The notes beneath the pieces were generated by a model. It was not told where the DNA came from, did no database searches, and saw nothing but the letters and a program-made list of their open reading frames with translations. Positions 13,143 to 64,000 of a stretch of 64,000 bases of DNA are shown piece after piece (position 1 is the first letter of the stretch; each line of letters begins with the position of its first letter). Source of the DNA: Actinomortierella ambigua (lineage: Eukaryota > Mortierellomycota > Mortierellomycetes > Mortierellales > Mortierellaceae); assembly GCA_016098155.1 (NCBI GenBank), contig JAAAJB010000002.1, positions 1 through 64,000 on the forward strand, written 5' to 3'. The position numbers were made by a program, and so were the translations under genes.

Positions 13143-14720
13143 ATGCCAACATGTGTGGAATGTGGCACTGCAGTGTCCTCGCTCTATACGGAATATAGCA
13201 AGGGCAACATCCGCTTGACCTATTGTGTATGAAAGAGTCTTTCTTTGTTCAGCTCCATTTTACTCCGCAGAGGCATACCTCACTTATGCAGCCTTCCAAT
13301 TGAGTACAAAGTATGAGGAGGCGTTAACATTGTGTGCATCGAGCACCCTCAATTTTTTTTTTTTCGTTCTCATCGCCTTCACGTTACTTTAGGAGCATTG
13401 CAAGATGTTGGCCGACAAGTACGTCGAGCACGACTTTGTTATCATCTTTGTCGATATGATACTACACAAGAAGCCTGTTTATCGCCACCTGCTTTTCAAC
13501 CGGTTACCCTACCGCGACTTTGGAATTGATGTATATGGTTTTTTTTATATTTTCTTCATATCCTTGCTACTCAGGGAAAAAATGGCGTGGCGCGCTGACT
13601 CTGTATGCCATGTTTACTTTTTTCTTCTTCTATGGAATGGACAAAAAACACACACACACACACCAGCCAAATGTGTTCAAGTTGGGCGTTCTTCTCGTCC
13701 TGTTTGATGTGTGTAAGTTGGGCAAACGAAATACAAATGTGCCATAGAATTTTGAAAGGTACTGTCTTTGTTTTTATACACTTTGAGCAAAAGACTCACG
13801 TAAGCGTTGTTATTTCTATTTTCTTAAATTAACAGATATAAAATGGTTCCGCCTGGAACAGCAATCGGCAATCATTGATGTCGGAGGCTTTGCACAGCAT
13901 TCGCTCGTTCTCCAATATCTCTACATTCTGTTCCTCTGTGTCATCGGTAAGGCGCAGCTGGTATTCTTGATTCGATTGGACACATACCACATCAGCGGAC
14001 AATATTTACGTGGATCTCCCACTTTCTCTCGCTTCGGAGTCTTTGGATTAACCTTGGATCCAATTGGGGGGAGGGGGTGTCTTTGCTTTTATCTCAAAAC
14101 CTTTTTTTGCAACAATGCCTGTCAACAATTTAGAGTTCCTCTCATTCCACTTTGGTGTTCGGTTAATTGTCAGCCTGTGGTATGGAAGTAGATACGCCAT
14201 CCTCAAGTAAGTTTCGAGGTGTCTGTTATGTCGCGAAAATAAAAAAGAGCGTAAAGATATTCCCAACCCGACGTGGCTCTAATTCCCTTCCCCCTTACTC
14301 TCGGGCACGAGCGTAGGTACAACTACATCACGACAGCGCTGATTATCTCCAGCTTTGGCAAGATGCTGATGATGCTCATGGTGATATGGGATTATACAGA
14401 GCTGGAATATTCGTGGTTGCTGATCAACCTCATCGTCTTTACCTCCAACATCGAAGCACTCTCAGGTATTTTTTGTTGCTATTATTTGTTGTGTCTCCTT
14501 CTCTAGAGCAATGTGCTACACACTGTGCTAGAACGTTCATACTCACGTTACGTCATCCTATTTTTCCCACGCGTGCTTCCTCTCTCAAGTCTTCCTAGAG
14601 ACAGGGTATCTGCAGACAGTATTCTTTCTGGGCTTTGGTATAGCTTGCCGAATCTTGATGCAGATTGCGTTTACTCAAATCATGGGTGATTCACCTCTCG
14701 TTTCGCTGACAAGCATGTAA
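13143..14720 (+). CDS. ARV1: ARV1 lipid homeostasis protein
   Basis: Seven exons in phase: 13143-13226, 13393-13530, 13667-13712, 13836-13946, 14134-14206, 14317-14465, 14590-14720; 243 residues. The N-terminal zinc ribbon has C4, C7, C28 and C31 (CVECG, then CEHC) around the family-typical SLYTEYSKGNIRLT. It is followed by the conserved block ADKYVEHDFVIIFVDMIL and YRHLLFNR. The C-terminal half has several hydrophobic segments (GVLLVLFDVYIKW, SLVLQYLYILFLCVI, TALIISSFGKMLMMLMVIW, VFFLGFGIACRILMQIAF), as expected for an ER membrane protein. ARV1 proteins affect sterol distribution and GPI-anchor synthesis. Length is in the usual range. All exon boundaries are GT-AG. Confidence 0.93.
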
Positions 14721-16988
14721 TATTTTTTCTTTTTTGAAAGTAAAATAATCCCCCGAAAGAAAGGGAAAAAAAACATACTTGTCACTCAAGCCCAAACTGT
14801 AGGATGGCGCCATAGCATAAATAATCAAATCACCACAACAACAACAAGTGACCACATCAAGTGGAAGGGCGCCAAGATTTTGTCCACACGACAAATAGCA
14901 CGGGGAAGGGAGCGGGCGAGAGAGACAGATGAAAAGGAGTTTTGGGAATGTTCTGTAGTCTGAGGGCAGGTTCAGGGCCAACAGACTCTAAAGTTTTCAC
15001 CAGCAGCAGGAGGCAGGGGTTGAGCAACTTCTTCTCCCCCCCCCCCCCCTTCGTGATTACGATCGACCCAAGTACAGTGGAGGTAAGTTGGATTTGGAGA
15101 CCCGAGCGCAATGGCCACTCCGCCTCCGCATCTGGATCCCGCCAATTTTCCCATGAGTCTCCCTGCCCCGCTCATTCGCTCTACTCTCCGATGAAGCTTG
15201 TTGTTCTTGCGGTGCATCTTATTTTTTTTTTATCTAAAATCTGCAGCGATAACCGTTATCATTTGGGGGCTTGAGGGTGCTAAGAGGAATGGAGCATAAT
15301 GCGAAAAAGAAAAGTAGCAAATCCCAATCAAAGGTGAAGACAAACGCTCAGTGTCGCCCTTTTGGGGCGCAGAGAATGAAAGGGAAGAATATTTATCCGT
15401 GACGAGAAAAGTATCCATGCCCCTTTTTTTTATTCAGACGCACGATAGAGCGAGAGAGTGAGACAGAGAGAGTGAGACATAAAAGGAATAAAAGAAAAAG
15501 GTCGGCAGATCGTCGACGCCAGGTAGCCTTCTGTGGGGGAATATGGGTTGTGGAGCGAACCCTTTGGACCTGCACAAAAAGACGCTTTGAACATGCTGGA
15601 TGGCCGGATACTCTATTCTATACCCGAAAGGTTGTTGTCGTTACACTTTTGTTTACCTCTTTCGTGGTTATTGTTTAGCCGGAGAATTGAAGAGGCTACT
15701 CATGTCGTGCCACATCAAAACGAAGACAAAAGAAAAAGAGAAAAAAAAAAAGACCGAGGGTCTCGATCATTGTCATCTACCACCGGATATTTCAGCCTCC
15801 TCACTCCCTCCCCTCCCCTGCTTTGAGCAAAGCAAAGAAGGGAAGACATATCTTTCTACTGAGGTGCATGCCTGCCTCAAAGGGTCTATCGAGGTACGTC
15901 TCCTTTTGGGGGTGGGAGGTAAAGGAGAAGGGAAGATAGGTTCTAGAATAATACGCGTGGGTTGGAGGGCGTTTGTTCATGAGTTGAAGAGTGGAGAGAA
16001 TGACAAGCGAGAGTTTTGAGTGAGTGTTGTGGGGGGGAGTGAGTGGGTGGCGCAAGATGGATCCGAATCACACCCGACGGGAAAACAATGTGCCAAAGCC
16101 AAGACCCCACCCAGCAATGTTGGATGGTTAAAGTTTTGGGGGCAACCAACCACCACGCTCGTACATACAACCACCAACTACTTTGTCTTTTCTCGCTCAC
16201 TTCGCACATCTCACACAACACAACACAATAATCCAGTAGTTGGAGATATGCGCAAAGTGTGTGTGTGTGTGTGTGTATGTGTGTGTGAATGAGAGAGAGA
16301 GTGAGAGGAGGGAAGATAGGGAGAGAGAGGGACAGAAAGAAATGAAAGAAGATCGGGTTCAGCAAGATGTATATTGAACGGCAAGAGACCGACAATCCGA
16401 AAGTATGGGACACAGAAAGGGCTAGACAATTCGAAGCCCCTCTTCTCCCTCTCCCTTTCCACCTTCTCTTTCTCCACTCATCCCATTGGCCATCAATCAC
16501 CGTGCCATTCATTCATTCTTTTGTTTCATTTCACTCTTCTTCGTCTTCTCATTGAGCCGTCTCTGTTCGCATACCGTGCCTCATAGAATAGAGTAGACAA
16601 AGTCTAAAAAAGACTACCCAGAAAGTGTGTGTTGTTCGAGTGCATCCCCACCACCCCTTACCCTTGGGGCAACAAACTTTCTTGCACACATACTCTCCTC
16701 TCCCCTCCCCATTCTTCTGTTTCGACTGTCTATCTGCCACTTTTTGTTCGCTGCCCAGTCAGAACGGCGCATCACTGCTCGACCAGGCTGTGCAAGTTCT
16801 TTGTGTCCATACTTTCTTCGTCTTCTTCCTTTCTTCATCTTCTCCCTTCACCTTCCTATCTCCTCCCTTCCCCACATCCCGGACTCTTCCACTTGGCATC
16901 TTCCGCCACATCTCCCTCGTTTCCCAACACACATCTCTATCCCCCGTCTTTGGTTCGGGGTTGTTCCTCACTCTCTGCCTCCAACATC
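14721..16988. other. Long intergenic region before the transcription factor
   Basis: About 2.3 kb without a supportable gene. It holds homopolymer runs (C tract at 15040-15050), a GT microsatellite at 16257-16287, a GA tract after it, and CT-rich DNA at 16440-16970 directly upstream of the transcription factor start. Several frames stay open in the CT-rich part because of its composition only. It most likely holds the ARV1 3' UTR and an extended promoter and 5' UTR of the transcription factor. No tRNA was recognised by eye. Confidence 0.45.
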
Positions 16989-52636: not shown

Positions 52637-55507
<2,871 letters not shown>

Positions 55508-55738
55508 AGAGAGTGAATTGAAGAGAATTAATGGCGAGTGAGCTTCGCATCCATGCGGAGCTTTCCGATGCCTTGTAACAAACAAAGCGAAATGGCGTAC
55601 CCGTTGGTTGAGTTCATGGGTGTCACAGAAATGTTGTGTTGGAGTCAGAATTGGATGAGAGTGAGGTCTACTTTCGTCGCAGTACGAAAAGACAGCCAGC
55701 GAGAAAAGAAAAGAGAGTGCGCGTGATTTCGGCGGAAA
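55508..55738. other. Poly(A) polymerase promoter, edge of the repeat array
   Basis: About 230 bp between the poly(A) polymerase start and the first relic of the tandem array. No distinct element was recognised. Confidence 0.35.
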
Positions 55739-56412
55739 TTACATATACCTCCAGGGAAATAAAGGAGCACGCCACAAGTTCTCCAATAGGAAACCAGGAA
55801 TGTCCAACATGTAATGGCCAATAGGCTCAAACATGGATCGAGCTTCCTTTATGTCTTTAGCTGGCGCGTAGCGCGCCCTGCCATCGATACCGACAAAACT
55901 ACCCTCCCCTTCCAACCTCATTTCTTCACTTCGCAACCCAGAGTCTTCTGTTTTGTTAGCCTGCTTCAAGGGAAGAGCGCTTTTCTAGTCTATATTCCAT
56001 GTCACAACTTAATGCACGCTCGCTATGTTCTTGTAGGCTCTGTGCTGCATTCATCCATTGATAGGCTCGGTTGGTTTGCTGTCCGTCACGATGATCTTGT
56101 GATATTTCCACGACATGAGATAGTCGCTGAGGTTCAGGTTGCGCGTTGTCGCGCTCGCAAGGAATGATCGGTCGGCCAGAGAGGCAATGCCGGACGCGGA
56201 TGATTGACCCAGCAGTCAAGCAGCAGCCTCACATGATTAGGGACCGAGTATGCGTCGCATGTGTAATCCCTGGTGGCATTGATCGCGATAAACTTGGGTG
56301 ATAACGCAGACAATAGTGCTGTACACTCACTATACTCTCGCTGCTTCAATCCATCTTCCATTTCATACCCAAAGATGATTATTGGGAACGTCTTCGACCT
56401 GTTTCCAGACAT
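55739..56412 (-). pseudogene. Minus-strand gene relic, array copy 1
   Basis: Two open minus-strand stretches in different frames, 56412-56134 and 55969-55739, are separated by a stop and frame changes. The first encodes KTFPIIIFGYEMEDGLKQRE, FIAINATRDYTCDAYS and VRLLLDCWVNHPRPALPLWP. The block VRLLLDCxxxHPRPALxLWPxD recurs on the minus strand of array copies 2 and 3, so it is inherited coding sequence and not chance. The second encodes FEPIGHYMLDIPGFLLENLW. I do not recognise the family. The relic is read as a decayed paralogue. Confidence 0.5.
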
Positions 56413-56985
56413 CGAAGCCTACGAAGATAAAGGCTATAGTAGATGTTGTTGTGTGCTGAGGCCTGTCTACCTGGGAGATGGTGGCTGTCGCTGGCTTCAA
56501 ATACCTTCGTCAGCTCAATACGCAAACCCTATACATCTCTCCCATGCTCCATGTCAAATAGAATCACCAGAATCCAATGCATCTAACGGGCTGCGCTATG
56601 GATCCTGCAAAAAGTGCGCATCCTGAAATCTATAATCTTGGATCCCTTCTTTCAAAGATTATTTACCTCTTCGCTGAAATGTGTTTCCTTCAAAAATGCG
56701 CTGTGCCTGTTGTGAAGGGGTACTGCTTCCTATGGCTCGATAGGTATACTCATAACACTTATCGGCGCGTGTTGTCACGCGTTCTCCACGATTCCTACGA
56801 TTCATAGGCTTCCTAGGTTCTACACGCGCCAAGCCCGATAGTGTCAACTCTGCCAAGAGTCGACACCGAAAATCCCTCACCGACCTTACCAGTTCCGAGG
56901 GCACAAGACCTCACAAAGTTTCAATCTAATTGGCTTTCTTTCTGATCCTTCGATTTACGAATAACATAAAAGTCGAACACACAAA
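56115..56985 (+). repeat. Array segment R, copy 1
   Basis: About 870 bp, clearly homologous to 58136-59066 and 60632-61220. Shared landmarks are CAGTCGCT..GGTTCAGGTTGCGC, CAATGCCGGACGCGG, CTCTCGCTGCTTCAATCCATCTTCC, GGGAACGTCTTCGACCTGTTTCC and ATCTATAATCTTGGATCCC. Near 56690-56735 it contains TTCAAAAATGCGCTGTG and GAAGGGGTACTGC, which are remains of the second exon of the adjacent plus-strand family (compare 59456-59530 and 62760-62830) with a deletion between them. Similarity is patchy, with many small indels. Confidence 0.7.
56841..56866. repeat. Inverted repeat, copy 1 (imperfect)
   Basis: Arms GTGTCAACTCT and AGAGTCGACAC around a 4-base loop GCCA, with one mismatch. The same hairpin is perfect in array copy 2 at 58916-58943. 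Confidence 0.7.
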
Positions 56986-57906
56986 AGCACCGACACCGAC
57001 AACACCCACACGAGGCCATATCATGGCCTCAATTATGAGTCGACGATGCATTCGTGCATCATCAGCGACGTCGAAGAGGCCCTCCGTCAAGCCACCGATC
57101 CAAGGGACCAACTGGAACTGGAGAATAGGCCCATCTTCCCTGATACCAAATCCGAGTCTTGGTATGTATCGAGAGAACGCTTGAATTGTGCGTCATGGAC
57201 TCCCTCGTGTAGAGGAAGCAATATCCTACACGCCTGGCGAGAACCATTCCCGAGGACTAGGCGAGCGCAAGAACGGGAGCCGGAAGACAGCGTAGGCGAA
57301 GCAGCAGTTAAGGGGTCATCGTATGCGAGACCTCACGGCTGGAACTAGGAGCAATGGGGCGAAGCCAAGGCAGACCACGCGGGGCCAAATTCGACCAAGG
57401 CTCTGCACGACCGGCTCAAACTGGCCAAGACAATGAAGGACCGGTTTGACAAGATTTGTGATACTACTACCACAAGTATCAACAAGATCTTGGGAACCTC
57501 ATCCTCCTTGGTGCCGTCCAACCAACCGCCATTGACCACATATGGTCTCTTAAACTCTGGAGGATCGATCTCCTTTTATAGCCTTCAACATCGCCGTGGC
57601 CGGTTTTACCAGCTTTGTTGTGAAGGGACGGCGACACTGCCCTCTGTTTGGTTGCCCGATGGACGCAACACAGAGGATATACTCTCCGTAATTTCATTTC
57701 TTTTATGCTTTCGGCGTCAGACGATGAATATGGCTTCGAGAATCGTCGATCTGACGAAGGTGGGATTCGAGCTGCCTCCCCCTTCTGGCACAAGTTCTCA
57801 ATCGAGACTGCGCGCCACCTTCGTCACTCCGAATGCATCCCCGCGACTTCGCCCAGCCACCATCTTCACCACGCCCGACGATGCTTTCCCCAGTGGATCG
57901 AGTTAA
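56985..57906 (+). pseudogene. Broken paralogue of the terminal array gene, copy 1
   Basis: The start of this copy aligns with 63270-63375 (YESTMHSCIISDV), then jumps to sequence matching 63724-64000, so about 345 bp are missing. Stops and a frameshift follow (for example TGA at 57183 and a shift near 57353). Downstream it goes on beyond the point where the intact copy leaves the window: NSTKALHDRLKLAKTMKDRF, then TTYGLLNSGGSISFYSLQHR and a final frame open from 57433 to a stop at 57904-57906. This tail therefore predicts what follows the window end in the intact copy. The gene family is not recognised. Confidence 0.6.
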
Positions 57907-58030
57907 TAGACGCCTGTGTTCGCATTGACGTCTCGTCAGCCCTTTCCTTTGTGGAGTTCTGCTATGGTGCGTACCACCTGCCTGTAAATAGTTTATTCGT
58001 AGTGTATTAAATGTCATTTTCTCAGTAGAA

Positions 58031-58303
58031 TTACTTTGGATAAAGTTTTTGGCAAAATCTGTTCAGACTAAATTGTATGATTCTATGGTTGTTATTGTGC
58101 TGGAGGTATGACTGCCATCTAACTATGTTATGATTGTGTTCCAGACAGTCGCTTGGGTTCAGGTTGCGCAGGTCCTCGCCATGGAGAAGCATGTCGTGTG
58201 TAATGGCAAGGACAAAATGCTCGCGCGCGCAGGAAAGATCGATCGGCCAGAGAAACAATGCCGGACGCGGGTGAATGATTCGGCAGTCAAGCAGAAGCCT
58301 CAC
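58031..58303 (-). pseudogene. Minus-strand gene relic, array copy 2
   Basis: An open frame encodes RLLLDCRIIHPRPALFLWPID, AREHFVLAITHDMLLHGEDL and NLNPSDCLEHNHN, then stops. The same order of motifs is found in copies 1 and 3. Upstream (58304-58560) the frame is interrupted. It is a fragment of the same unrecognised family as 55739-56412. Confidence 0.5.
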
Positions 58304-59066
58304 ATGGTCAGGTAATTCCTGGTGGCATTGATCGCGACAAACTGGCGGTGAAAACTGCCAATACTAGTGCTGTACATTCACTTTACTCTCGCTGCTTCAA
58401 TCCATCTTCCAGCTCATACCCAAAAATGATTATGTATTGGGAACGTCTTCGACCTGTTTCCAGACATCGAGGCCTACGAAGATAGAGGCTATAGTTGATC
58501 TTGTTGTGTGCTGAGGCCTATCTACCTGGAGGATGGTGACTGTCACAGGCCTTGGATACCTTCGTCAACTCAATACGTAAACCCCCTATACTGCTCTCCC
58601 ATGCCCTATGTCAAATAGAATCACCAGAATCCAATGCGTCCAACGGGCTGCGCTGGGTGTCTTGTAAAATGTCCGCATCCTGAAATCTATAATCTTGGAT
58701 CCCTTCTTTCAAAGATTATTCACATATATCTTTGCTGGAATTTACTTCCTTCAAAAAATGCGCTGTGCCTACTATGGAGGGGTACTGGTGCCGATGGCTT
58801 GATCGTTATACTCAGAACACGCGTCGGCGCGTGTGGTCGCGCTTCCTCCACAATTTCCTAGGATTCTTACGCTTCTTAGGCTCTACGCTTGCGATCAGTT
58901 TGCGCCAAGCCTGGTGGTGTCGACTCTGCCAAGAGTCGACACCGAAAATCCCTCACTGATCTTACCGGCTCGAGGACATTTATTTATAGGACCTCACCCA
59001 ATAAACTCTCCATAACTTCCTTCTCATCATTCGACATACGAGTAACATTAAAGTCGGACACACAGT
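58136..59066 (+). repeat. Array segment R, copy 2
   Basis: About 930 bp homologous to copy 1 (56115-56985), including the same landmarks and the shared 3' part ACCGAAAATCCCTCAC ... ACATAAAAGTCG/ACATTAAAGTCG-type end. It starts about 2.02 kb after copy 1 and is followed by the second broken plus-strand paralogue. Confidence 0.7.
58916..58943. repeat. Perfect 12-bp inverted repeat with 4-base loop
   Basis: GGTGTCGACTCT, loop GCCA, then AGAGTCGACACC. It can form a stable hairpin and has a SalI-like GTCGAC core in each arm. It lies at the same place in segment R copy 1 (one mismatch), upstream of the plus-strand gene of each unit. Confidence 0.85.
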
Positions 59067-59159
59067 TTCACCGGAAGCCCAAGTCAAGGCCTTGGGTCGT
59101 GCTCTAGGTACCTTGTATATGTCTTGACCACCCATCCTCGAGCCAAGGCCAGATTCGGC

Positions 59160-60380
59160 GTCGCATGGAGTTCGTAAGCTCTAGTGACGGCGCAACATAC
59201 TCAGACGTCGAGGAGATGACCAATGTTCATGTGGTCTCTTGCAAGCGAAGGCGAACGCCCCAAGTCTAAGCGGTTGACAGCTGAGAATGCCGATAAGACG
59301 ATGGTAAGGGTCTTGAGATGCCTATACATGGAAGGATGGTGTGTGTCATCAATCACTTCTTCTTTTTGTAACCTTGTCATTGTTGCCTCTCATTAGGATA
59401 AGGTCTTCACTGAGACACTGACTCCAAAGGTGTTTGTACGCCCCCCAACCCGCCTTCAAAAATGCGCTGTGCAATATATTGCTCAAATGCGCCTGAATCC
59501 ACGGCCTACCGTTGAAGGGTACCTTGCGCATGTCCGGGCTAGCGGCCATCTTTAAGCCAATTCTAGGCCTGGCACCCCGTGGAATAAGCTCAAGGAGTTC
59601 TTCAGCTCCACTGACGACGCAAGCTACTCGGACATCGAGGAGATAGCCGACGTTGAGGCGCTTGTCGATGCATACCAAGCTGAACGATATATACAAGATA
59701 ACGAGCCCATGCTACCTGGGCCCAACATTGCTCCTGCACCAACCATCTTGGATCCCAGTACAGCCTCAACCTCCATCACACGGCCTCGAACCTATAAGCT
59801 GCGCGCGAGTAACGACAACAGCAGCATCAGCATCAGCGTTATGGTGGAGTCCAGTTATAGTCCTCAGCACCGCCGCGACTGGTTCTACCAGCCTTGTCGC
59901 AGGAGAACAGCGACATTGCTCTCTCGACATTATCGCAAGGCAGGACCTGCTCTCCTGCGAATCGCGAGCGAATCTTGGGCGCGTATAACTTTCTTAGAGC
60001 CTTCAATCCTCTGTATGCCAACACGCCTGTCGTACCGCCGTTGATACAAGCAGATGGTCTGCAGTGAGGACGAATCCGCTTGGGACAACTCGAAGATCTC
60101 TTTGTGGCAGGCATTGCTGTGCGGATATCCGATAGACTCAATATGGAGAGTATTACTCTCCGTTCTCTCATTTCTTTTATGCTTCCATCGCCAGACGATG
60201 ACCATGGCCTCCACAATCGTTGATCTCACGAAAGTAGGTCTCCTCCCTCTGGCACAAGTATTCAGTCGAGACTGCCTGCTACCATCGTCCGTCACCCCTA
60301 ATGTATCTCCACGGCTTCGCGCAGTCACCACCTCCACCAGGCCCAACGATACTTTCTTCAGCGGATCAAGTTCGTATTAG
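59160..60380 (+). pseudogene. Broken, mosaic paralogue of the terminal array gene, copy 2
   Basis: A fragment at 59168-59235 matches the FSSSDxATYSDIEDMTNV region of the intact gene (62910-62960), but it stands before the equivalent of exon 1 (59235-59297, CCAAGTCTAAGCGGTTGACAGCTGAG), so the order is scrambled. The intron and acceptor (TCTCATTAG at about 59389-59397) and exon 2 start (KVFVRPPTRLQKCAVQYIAQM) are conserved. A stop (TAA near 59554) and frameshifts follow. The last part, about 59740-60380, matches the tail of copy 1 (57540-57906). No intact frame remains. Confidence 0.6.
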
Positions 60381-60403
60381 ACCCCTATGCTCACATTAGA
60401 GTC

Positions 60404-60775
60404 TCATCCACATTCTCCTTTGTGCAACCCTGATAGGGTGCGTGCAGCCAGCCTGTTCATAGTGTATTTGAAGTGTGTAATAATATTTGGATAGTGTTTT
60501 CTGCAATATATGATCTTGGGTGAATTCTTTTCGCCTACCAACTTATCCAGACTGAAAGGTATGACTCTATGGTTGTTATTGTACTGGAGGTATGACTGCC
60601 ATCTAACTGTGTTATGGTTGTGTTCCAGACAGTCGCTTGGGTTCAGGTTGCGCAGGTCCTCGCCATAGAGAAACATGTCGTGTCTAATGGCAAGGACAAA
60701 GTGCTCGCGCGCACAAGGAAAGATCGATCGGGCAGAGAAACAATGCCGGACGCGGGTGAATGATCCGGCAGTCAA
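60404..60775 (-). pseudogene. Minus-strand gene relic, array copy 3
   Basis: An open minus-strand frame encodes PCAREHFVLAIRHDMFLYGE, LRNLNPSDCLEHNHNTVRWQ and YLQYNNNHRVI, almost the same as copy 2. The upstream VRLLLDC motif is in another frame because of a small indel. Same unrecognised family. Confidence 0.5.
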
Positions 60776-61220
60776 GCAGAAGCCTCACATAGTCAGGCAC
60801 CGATTACGCGTAGCATGTTTAATCTCTGGTGGCAATGATCGTGACAAACTTGAGTGAGAATGCCGACAATAGTGCTGTACACTCACTTTACTCTCGCTGC
60901 TTCAATCCATCTTCCATTCAATACGTAAAGATGATTATTAGGAACGTCTTCGACCTCTTTCTAGACATTACGGCCTACAAAGTAAAGGGCTATAGTATAT
61001 GTTGTTGCGTGTGTGGCCTGTCTATCTGGGGACGGTGACGGTCGCTGGCTTTGGATACCTCCGTCAGCCCAATACCTTTCTCTCATGTCCAATTTCTAAT
61101 ATCATTACAAGAATCCAATGCGTCCAACGGGTTTGGCTGTGTATCCTGCAAATGTCCGCATCCAACAATCCACATTCCTGTAGCCCGCTTTCTCAAACAT
61201 TATTCATCTCTTCGTTGGAC
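60632..61220 (+). repeat. Array segment R, copy 3 (truncated)
   Basis: Homologous to copies 1 and 2 from the CAGTCGCTTGGGTTCAGG start to about 61220. It begins about 2.5 kb after copy 2. It loses similarity before the hairpin region, and unrelated repeats follow. Confidence 0.65.
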
Positions 61221-61531
61221 GGTGCTTCCTATGGAGTGTTGGCTCGATTGTCAAGGACCACAATGCCTCCAGACTGCCGAGCATTCTAGACCTAATAAAA
61301 ATATACCTGTAGAGAAAAGGGTAATGGTTAGTGACGGAGGAACAAGCACAACCGTGCAACTCCTTTGATGCAATTACACCACACACACGCAGTGGCCCCA
61401 GTCACCCAGTCACTCAGCAGTGATTACAGCCGCAGCTAGGCGGAGGCTCACGGTCACCATAGTCATCTCAAATGAGATGGCTCTGATTGCAGCACCACCA
61501 TGACCTTGATGACAAGCACCTAGGCATGGCC

Positions 61532-61590
61532 AGGTCATATGGAAAGTCGAGCAGCGCACGGCTTCACCCCTTGCCTTCATGGACCCAAGG
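61532..61590 (+). repeat. 59-bp repeat, unit A1
   Basis: Starts AGGTCATATGGAAAGTCG and ends CATGGACCCAAGG. It shares the A-type core CACGGCTTCACCC with 61914-61972 and the preceding 45 bp as well (GCAGCACCACCATGACC... compared with GCAGCACCATCATGACC...). Confidence 0.85.
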
Positions 61591-61655
61591 AGCAAACAGA
61601 TGCAACAGCTCCAGCCCAACAGCACCACCAAGGCCCAGATAGCCAGGACTTGGAG

Positions 61656-61714
61656 AGGTCATATGGAAAGTCAGGCAGCGCACGGCTTAACCTATTGCTC
61701 TCATGGACCCAAGG
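61656..61714 (+). repeat. 59-bp repeat, unit B1
   Basis: Same length and ends as unit A, with the B-type core CACGGCTTAACCTATTGCTC shared with 62042-62100. Confidence 0.85.
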
Positions 61715-61913
61715 TGTTGAACCTTTGCTGAGGCGATATGGATCTCAGCTCTTCCCAACGGGGAGTGGACTCACAGAAAAGGATGAGGTCGTATAGAGGG
61801 ATACTCTCCAATCACAATCGCCTTTCCCTCATGGACCCACGAGTCTGAAGGAGAACATACTGCTCGCATTGCAGCACCATCATGACCAAGATAACAAGCA
61901 TCCTGGCATGAAG

Positions 61914-61972
61914 AGGTCATATGGAAAGTCGAGCAGCGCACGGCTTCACCCATTGCCTTCATGGACCCAAGG
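61914..61972 (+). repeat. 59-bp repeat, unit A2
   Basis: A-type copy, 382 bp after A1. Confidence 0.85.
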
Positions 61973-62041
61973 CGCAACCGATTGCAGTAGCCCAAATCCT
62001 ACACCACCCCAGCCAAAGTGAGGAAGCCTTTAGCCGTGGAG

Positions 62042-62100
62042 AGGTCATATGGAGAGTCAAGCAGCGCACGGCTTAACCTATTGCTCTCATGGACCCAAGG
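62042..62100 (+). repeat. 59-bp repeat, unit B2
   Basis: B-type copy, 386 bp after B1. Confidence 0.85.
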
Positions 62101-62518
62101 AGGACCCTGCTCGCATCTATTCCCGAAATCCGCACACAACGCCATGCTTGTTCTCAGACACTACCATTACCTTGAGCGTACACGATGGGGAGCAAATGAT
62201 GTCGAGAGTGAAAGGATTAAAGAAGGTTAAAGATTCAATTTGAGTGGATTAATACGTAGTGGCAAAAAAATCACCATGACGTGTCAGGGGGGGCACCACA
62301 CAAGCAAGATTTCCAATAAATACTTACTGAGGCAAAAGCACGTAACATCCGCACATTCCATCTTGCTTGAAGGTATGGATGTTTGTAACATCAGATGAAA
62401 GGTGGCGAGCATTCTTGTGGTTGGCAAGATTGCACAAATATATCACCATGGATCAACGCTGGGACTTGACGTTATCTTATCAATTGCATACTTATATGCT
62501 TTGCTGTCACTAGTATCA

Positions 62519-64000
62519 ATGCTTAAGCGACCTCTTGCAGACAACGACGGGGAACGCCGCAAGTCTAAGCGGTTGACAGCTGAGGGTGCCGATGGGATGA
62601 TGGTAGGGGTCTTGAGATGCATATACATGGAAGGATGGTGTGTGTCATCAATCACTTCTTTTTTTTTTTTTTGTAACCTTGTCGTTGTTGCCTCTCGTTA
62701 GGATGAGGCCTTTACTGAGACACTGACTTCAAAGGTGTTCGTCCGCCGCCCAACTCGCGTGCAAAAATGCGCAATACAATATATTACTGAAATGCGCCTG
62801 AATCCGCGGCCTAGTGTCGAAGGATACCTGTCACATGTCCAGGCCGCCCATCTTCCAAGCAAGGTCAACTTTGGGGCCGCTTGGAATAAGCTCAAGGAGT
62901 TTTTCAGCTCCAGTGACCCAGCAACCTACTCGGATATCGAGGACATGACAAACGTTCAAGCGCTTGTGGATGCATTCAAAGCACAGCGATGCATCCAGCC
63001 CACCCAACCTGGCTCAGTCCCCAGCACACGGCCCCAGGCCTCCATGTCCAGCGCAAGTAGCAACAACGTCAGCAGGAGCAGCAGCAGTAGGAGCAGCAAC
63101 AGCAGGAGCAGCAACAGGAGCAGCGGCAGTGGCAGCAGTAGCAAAAGCAGCGGCTTCAGTCTCAACTCCACCTTGTTGGCCCAGTTGCGACTGAACTTTG
63201 AGGCTAACTGGGATGCCTTCAAAGGGGAGCCATGGACCCTTCCATCTGGGGCAGCTTTGGATGACCTACTGCGAGGCCACGTCGTGGCCCTCGACTATGA
63301 GTCGACGATGCATTCGTGCATCATCAGCGACGTCGACGAGGTCCTCCGCCTGACCACCGATCCACGGGACCAACAGGAGTTGGAGCGAATGTTGTGTCAG
63401 CCTCGAGACGACAGTCTCTGGTCCCTGCCCGATGCTGAGTTACAGTATCTACAGCTCTATGACAAGCCGCCTGCTGTCATTGAGACGATGCTGAAGTTTG
63501 GCTACGGTACGGTACTTGAAAGTGCCAAGGCGGCCGCTACCGGACCCAGCGTCGACGCTGACACTAGTGGCAGCGCAGGCCCCAACATTGCCACCTCCGC
63601 CACCTCCGCCGCAATCTCCGCCACTCCTACCATTACCGCCGGAAGCTCCAGCCAAGTTCCTTCGGAAGAGTATTGCGCTCTTGTACATGAGCTTGTGAAT
63701 TGCCTGTACCGGATGTATAGAAGGAATGAATTCACCCTCCCTGGTACCAAATCCAAATCTTGGTATCAAGAGAATGTCTGGATTGTGCTGCACGAGCTCC
63801 TGAATGTAGAGGACACAATCTCTTACACGCCTGGCGAGTACCATTCCCGAGCATCAGGCGAGTACAAGTGGGCAGGGAGGGGGATTCACGGGGTCATTGT
63901 TTCCGTGGCCCCACAATTAGGACTAGGGGCAGTAAAGGCTACCGAAGCAGATCACGCGGGGCCAAATTCGGCCGAGGCTTTGCACGGTCGGCTCAAACTG
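62519..64000 (+). CDS. Terminal array gene, open, cut by the window end; family not recognised
   Basis: Exon 1 62519-62602 and exon 2 62702-64000 join in phase 0 (GTAGGG...CGTTAG) and stay open for 461 codons to the window edge. The same intron position is kept in broken copy 2. The N-terminus is basic, MLKRPLADNDGERRKSKRLT, with a likely nuclear signal. Next comes DEAFTETLTSKVFVRRPTRV and a region with FFSSSDPATYSDIEDM, then a Ser/Arg/Asn-rich linker (63030-63150). The C-terminal part includes SLWSLPDAELQYLQLYDKPP, VIETMLKFGYGTVLE, EYCALVHELVNCLYRMYRR, KSWYQENVWIVLHELLN and GVIVSV...LGAVKA...GPNSAEALHGRLKL. This last layout could be a PD-(D/E)XK-like nuclease fold, but the key residues are not clearly seen, so this is a guess. 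Confidence 0.65.

Follow-up and report, generated by a model that had tools for sequence, protein, structure and literature searches.

What does a decaying gene array still preserve, and why would anything within it be kept? The window analysed here comprises the first 64,000 nucleotides (bases 1-64000) of contig C112 (190,105 bases) of Actinomortierella ambigua, whose assembled genome is 33.8 Mb in 846 contigs. As the first-pass annotation of this DNA had described, its end holds three tandem copies of a two-part unit: self-comparison gives three colinear units (R1/gene 1, R2/gene 2, R3/gene 3), each a segment R followed by a plus-strand gene, with ~73-92% identity by segment. The array by itself is ordinary gene-family birth and death. 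In unit 3, R3 and gene 3 are separated by ~1.3 kb with tandem repeats, and this interval contains an 864-nt conserved block that was absent from the first-pass annotation. The reading that we favour, and hold to be somewhat probable from the sequence comparisons described below, is that the decayed array is accompanied by a conserved minus-strand intron that would give a structured RNA beside a family of nuclease-like genes. The features of the block are as follows.

61307-62170, minus strand: conserved intron-like block within a presumed noncoding transcript of that strand (5' site 62170; branch motif near 61331; terminal AG 61307)
61532-61590, 61652-61714, 61783-61841 (divergent), 61910-61972 and 62038-62100, minus strand: five hairpin repeats ~127 nt apart (profile matches, pair counts)
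61461-61482, minus strand: hairpin near the 3' end of the block, its sequence varying between loci and its folding kept (folding z-scores)

A conserved block ahead of many family genes

The matches of a genome search with the block region fell mostly on contigs with members of the gene family and set the block edges at 61311-62175, with which the splice signals agree within 5 nt. The repeat pattern gave 45 matches genome-wide, compared with 3 for the same pattern read backwards. With the locus list extended by a C373 query and by the repeat pattern, there are 14 module loci (C112, three on C373, C463, C85, C822, three on C114, C122, C520, C12 and C647), and a family gene or remnant lies 0.3-1.9 kb (<2 kb) downstream of 11 of them, in the same strand arrangement as on C112. 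Three of the regions were examined later, as a test: C520 has a truncated family member, C114 at ~30.4-30.7 kb has a weak N-terminal match (E 9e-6), and C114 at 49.1-51.1 kb has no family gene. Matches that stand outside the 14-locus count are those of the pattern on C801, C833, C613, C233, C661, C480 and other contigs, further ones on C77 and C833, and a partial one on C122 (9501-9541); possible further modules are seen at C801:40-165, C833:112-304, C613:7635-7907 and C233:7526-7783, some of them at contig starts.

The block ranges from 450 to 1360 nt across loci (the longest, ~1.36 kb, at C822:60470-62000) and retains ~66-72% identity between them. Among the six introns with both ends set, 15 of 15 pairs match by blastn, as against no blastn similarity between loci in the flanks at E 0.001 (seven upstream, six downstream) and no peptide similarity between loci in the translated flank fragments. 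The synonymous sites of the coding sequences are saturated, with a proportion of synonymous differences (pS) of 0.74-0.81 in the pairs run among C112, C822, C85 and C373a. Because the block keeps its identity while synonymous sites are saturated and the flanks are dissimilar, it exceeds neutral sequence in conservation on these comparisons, which its flanks do not; a block that stays alike under such conditions points strongly to a functional noncoding RNA. A protein-coding origin of the repeats was rejected, as the spacing changes between conserved blocks are not multiples of three and the flank peptides are dissimilar.

We also considered whether the block is an old transposable element, like a miniature inverted-repeat transposable element (MITE) or an introner, with terminal inverted repeats and copied along with the gene. 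The two ends of the block do form an inverted repeat, and some modules have no family gene (C12, C114 at 51.1 kb, C647); however, the position of 11 of the 14 modules ahead of a family gene, the old divergence between loci evident from their 66-72% identity, and the constraint on a single continuous block where the flanks have been lost make such an origin very unlikely.

Edges, closing stem and hairpins of the block

Edges and closing stem were examined in eight loci (C112, C373a, C463, C85, C12, C122, C822 and C114b). The minus-strand 5' edge reads AG/GTAATG in 8 of 8, and a branch-type motif, CTRAY, occurs near the block 3' end in all eight; it is followed by a stretch of 75-86% pyrimidine, and the first AG is a YAG, at +24 to +35, in 7 of 7 loci (the end of C822 is cut off). 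The 5' splice site is complementary to the branch region (GUAAUGGY-AG with CU-RACCAUUAC), with 79 of 80 cells paired; Y and R covary, in C463 a further pair is altered on both sides, and 144 of 40320 permutations are equally good. We infer that the block is a spliceosomal intron on the minus strand, hosted by a divergent noncoding transcript, and that pairing between its own splicing signals closes it.

The same structural evidence would also serve for a free-standing minus-strand RNA gene, transcribed for example by RNA polymerase III, with a terminal stem, a T-run end and no intron; a T-run of at least 4 does lie within 22 nt past the stem in 6 of 8 loci, versus 6% of background windows. That T-run, however, belongs to the pyrimidine tract leading to the YAG in 7 of 7 loci, the exonic AG before the GT is kept in 8 of 8 though the remaining flank is not, and 450-1360 nt is long for a gene of the RNA polymerase III type, so that we judge an RNA gene of this kind quite unlikely.

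The hairpin repeats are arranged regularly within the intron-like block. C112, C373a, C463 and C85 each have five in the same register, beginning 71-76 nt from the 5' site and with the third the weakest, C12 and C114b have 2, C122 has 3 weak ones, and C822 has 12 partial ones. We kept 31 repeat cores (at least 25 bits and at least 50 model positions); alignments A3 and A5 have 28 rows, three divergent third repeats being omitted, and neither includes repeats from C822. In the repeat stem, GGTC..AGAGGC/GCCTCT..GACC, pairing is 89.8% on the minus strand, against a shuffled mean of 84.9, and 86.6% on the sense strand, against 79.8. On either strand 0 of 500 shuffles reach the observed pairing, and slid versions reach at most 53%; these shuffle figures are not probabilities, because the structure was drawn from the same sequences and the shuffles ignore relatedness. 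The hairpin near the block 3' end has folding z-scores of -2.2 to -5.8 on the minus strand in 8 of 8 loci, of which C373a and C373b are close paralogues, and folds in C122 too; on the plus strand z is below -2 in 4 of 8 loci. A placement of the block as a sense-strand 5' leader was rejected: by eye the sense edges have no branch motif or tract, and pairing on that strand is 86.6%, as against 89.8%.

Could these repeats act as DNA, in the form of an upstream regulatory array of repeated palindromic binding sites that makes no RNA? They are palindrome-like, have arms conserved in primary sequence, and stand upstream of the gene, at 0.3-1.9 kb and always in one strand arrangement, which speaks for such an array. 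Yet the arm-to-arm spacing is not constant, the block ends fall at splice-type edges, and the arms covary, G-U pairs included; on balance we think a DNA-level role unlikely.

Introns that carry RNAs are known from noncoding host genes, namely the hosts of small nucleolar RNAs (snoRNAs) and genes of the GAS5 type. The block resembles these in that the intron is conserved and the flanking exons are not, and in having structured units inside the intron; it differs in having no Rfam snoRNA match, in carrying tandem hairpins of one kind in register, and in standing, in the cases studied here, always beside one protein family. Identity with a known RNA family was rejected for want of an Rfam match at the gathering score, and the block may encode a new kind of RNA.

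Several observations weigh against an intron-borne structured RNA that is tied to the gene family. Searches of Rfam 15, snoRNAs included, gave 0 matches in window positions 54000-64000 and a best E of 0.55 in five loci. Unaided, RNAalifold predicts almost no consensus structure in the repeats, its covariation term for the 3' part is small, and the folding z-scores of the repeats average only about -1 on both strands. In an arm-swap test the overall difference is clear, yet taken singly only 5 of 7 contigs beat both swapped averages. The 3' hairpin of C112 itself folds better on the sense than on the minus strand, so the strand call is not uniform. No family gene was found downstream in 3 of the 14 modules (C114 at 49.1-51.1 kb, C12 and C647), where the sequence was examined, and no recognised module lies within the 0.9-1.5 kb examined upstream of the family genes on C393, C12 (30 kb), C13 and C157. 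To these points may be added the lack of any significant structural match to the family protein model in Foldseek, and that all comparisons of the block are within one genome.

The gene family and a possible RNA partner

The plus-strand gene is a member of a Mortierellaceae family that has ~25 loci in the genome, fragments counted, spread over 12 contigs and C520 and clustered on C373, C122, C12, C114 and C822. In searches of the protein collection (~8000 candidates scored in each) its relatives were confined to Actinomortierella, Mortierella and Modicella, with one further protein; the C822 family protein is 100% identical over the query to DFQ27_009407. The contig mapping and this narrow range agree with the first-pass suggestion of a lineage-specific family with local clusters and decay.

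The C-terminal part of the family protein model has an a-b-b-b-a-b core order in its secondary structure, and the fold is probably PD-(D/E)XK-like, that is, restriction-endonuclease-like. This core order is what the family shares with the PD-(D/E)XK superfamily (e.g. the type IIG enzymes BpuSI and DrdV); it differs in that 12 of 12 members match 0 Pfam families at E ≤0.01, and thus no Pfam domain of the CRN type found in Crinkler (CRN) proteins, in the Foldseek result just mentioned, and in that gene copy 3 is without three core residues. A profile search of solved structures with the family was uninformative (best E 0.1). At the near-invariant positions D424, E435 and E440 of alignment A4, copy 3 carries H, G and K; the core residues are kept in P0005 and relatives. 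Because near-invariant core residues have been lost, it is doubtful, as judged from the alignment, that the open copy 3 is the working copy. Exon 1 of copy 3 codes for a run of basic residues (KRP...RRKSKR) that has counterparts in P0005, P0001 and the C85 protein, which suggests a nuclear location; the family proteins are probably nuclear. At the C-terminal end of the family, behind an otherwise variable tail, a TLTTPxxSP motif is conserved (alignment A4), which we take to resemble proline-directed phosphorylation sites.

How might block and protein be connected? The opposite-strand element before many family members, copy 3 included, would be the intron of a divergent noncoding host transcript, closed by the stem from 5' splice site to branch region and carrying two to five tandem hairpins in most of the loci examined, more in C822. 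Once transcribed and excised, the intron could persist as a stable structured RNA or serve as a source of small RNAs, acting with or on the nuclease-like proteins. The array, its decay, the family, the recombinase origin of R, the conserved block with its splice-type edges and the covarying stems are read directly from the sequence; that the block is transcribed and spliced, that its RNA is stable and partners the protein, and that the protein is an active nuclease are inferences. Carried to its end, the idea becomes a nuclear two-component system in which a fast-evolving restriction-endonuclease-like protein is bound, guided or restrained by a divergent intron-borne hairpin RNA, with the RNA the more constrained partner and outliving the protein at some loci; this we offer as a speculative proposal with a modest chance of being right. 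As the block is linked to the nuclease-like family, whether RNA and protein act as partners in a fungal nucleus can be tested directly.

In bacterial type III toxin-antitoxin systems, tandem structured RNA repeats precede a nuclease-like gene, and the block likewise places tandem structured repeats ahead of such a gene. The differences are repeats that appear to be on the opposite strand, intron-like ends, a eukaryotic nucleus and another predicted protein fold; it is the block edges and the slightly better pairing that favour the minus strand here, unlike the same-strand repeats of type III systems. In titles and the starts of abstracts of the open-licence literature we found no account of the block, the gene family or such an RNA-protein pair.

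The decayed array, its R segments and its neighbours

The remaining features of the array are listed in order along the contig.

55921-56983, minus strand: R1, recombinase remnant (recombinase-like DNA at 55921-56285) and the segment common to the R copies (blastn to C112)
57011-58023, plus strand: gene copy 1, C-terminal part alone, broken (blastn to 63272-63385 and 63738-64599)
58064-59064, minus strand: R2, second recombinase remnant with shared flank (58145-58312 matches 67774-67944 at 83%; also matches R1 and R3)
59164-60483, plus strand: gene copy 2, a scrambled piece of the N-terminal part plus a C-terminal tail (blastn to copy 3, five pieces)
60548-61230, minus strand: R3, third recombinase remnant with shared flank (60629-60843 matches 67774-67990 at 81%)
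62519-62602, plus strand: first exon of gene copy 3, with 28 codons and a basic N terminus (ATG at 62519; agrees with P0004)
62603-62701, plus strand: gene copy 3, GT-AG intron (reading of the sequence; agrees with P0004)
62702-64000, plus strand: gene copy 3, exon 2, running on past the window end (stop at 64484-64486)

In copy 1, 57011-57123 and 57137-58023 match 63272-63385 and 63738-64599 of copy 3 by blastn; ~350 bp are therefore missing between the two pieces of copy 1, in keeping with the 345-bp deletion first reported. Copy 2 is permuted and shortened relative to copy 3, and its order is scrambled as had been described: 59164-59229 (matching 62893-62958) precedes 59236-59688 (62532-62990), and the tail consists of 59856-59915 (64154-64213) and 60117-60483 (64221-64586). 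Copy 3 does have the kept intron and the 461 open codons noted within the window, and beyond it on C112 the frame is not interrupted but remains open to 64483 and ends in a stop codon at 64484-64486. After splicing, the product has 28 + 594 = 622 residues and is identical to P0004 of the protein collection. In open segments the ratio of nonsynonymous to synonymous divergence (dN/dS) is 0.30 between units 1 and 3 (157 codons, dS 0.60) and 0.38 between units 2 and 3 (95 codons, dS 0.50), below 1 as the first-pass annotation had expected of open copies, and it is 0.26-0.52 among four pairs of close paralogues. Because dN/dS is 0.30-0.38 at a dS of 0.5-0.6, these substitution patterns indicate that the genes were under constraint for much of their history and that the duplications are not recent.

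The R copies are related by alignment (all E ≤1e-131 in self-comparison): R1 56149-56983 with R2 58221-59064 at 79%, R2 58064-58722 with R3 60548-61206 at 80%, and R1 56149-56689 with R3 60705-61230 at 79%. With deletions, parts of all three also align at 77-90% to a minus-strand gene of C112 at ~65,856-69,585; for R1 the matches are to 65703-65840, 67341-67394, 67768-67797 and 67853-67988. This apparently complete recombinase gene, at ~65.86-69.59 kb beyond the window, was absent from the first-pass annotation. Its gene model is putative; an in-frame stop near 69.1 kb coincides with a plausible short intron. One exon scores 30.6 bits for NDC10_II (PF16787; cut-off 26.3) and the other 24.5, below the cut-off; the score is 29.8 bits in a search of the whole genome, and an H-x-x-R motif is visible by eye. 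NDC10_II is the domain of Crypton-type tyrosine recombinases. From these alignments R1-R3 are read as remnants of a Crypton-type (NDC10_II) tyrosine recombinase gene and not as a partner gene: like recombinases of this type, the gene beyond the window has the domain, in two exons, and R1-R3 are what is left of its copies; unlike them, the R copies are fragments only.

Recombinase matches occur at 17 places on 14 contigs, of which C112 and C131 alone also carry the gene family, ~35 kb apart on C131. Because the other recombinase contigs are without the gene family, R looks like an accidental, local neighbour. The earlier idea of divergent gene pairs amplified together thus gives way to a mobile-element-type recombinase remnant whose pairing with the gene seems local, and its prediction of many genomic copies holds for the gene family (~25 loci) but not for the two-part unit, R-type DNA being confined in the genome search to the C112 array and one fragment on C647. 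A two-gene mobile element, made of recombinase and nuclease-like gene and amplified in tandem, would account for their adjacency in three units and again at 64.5-69.6 kb; the linkage across contigs, with family genes on only two of the 14 and at a distance on C131, led us to reject such a single element, which we now regard as highly improbable.

In the history that we propose instead for the array, the ancestral gene would have been a member of the Mortierellaceae family of probably nuclear restriction-endonuclease-like proteins that came to adjoin a Crypton-type tyrosine recombinase gene. The segment formed by a recombinase piece and the nuclease-like gene would then have been duplicated in tandem, most simply by unequal crossing-over, and the duplicates would have decayed, leaving copies 1 and 2 broken and copy 3 open minus core residues.

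Some minor observations concern the array and its surroundings. R1 and R2 share a near-perfect palindrome, at 56843-56864 and 58919-58940 (GTCGACTCT..AGAGTCGAC in unit 2); R3 is without that part. On C647, open frames at 13356-14872 resemble, by eye, a pogo/Tigger-type DDE transposase and lie beside a partial module and a partial R3. To the left of the array, minus-strand exons at 53987-55600 appear by eye to be poly(A) polymerase-like, and to the right of the recombinase gene, on the contig beyond the window, minus-strand exons at L009:6901-7842 look, likewise by eye, like those of a manganese superoxide dismutase.

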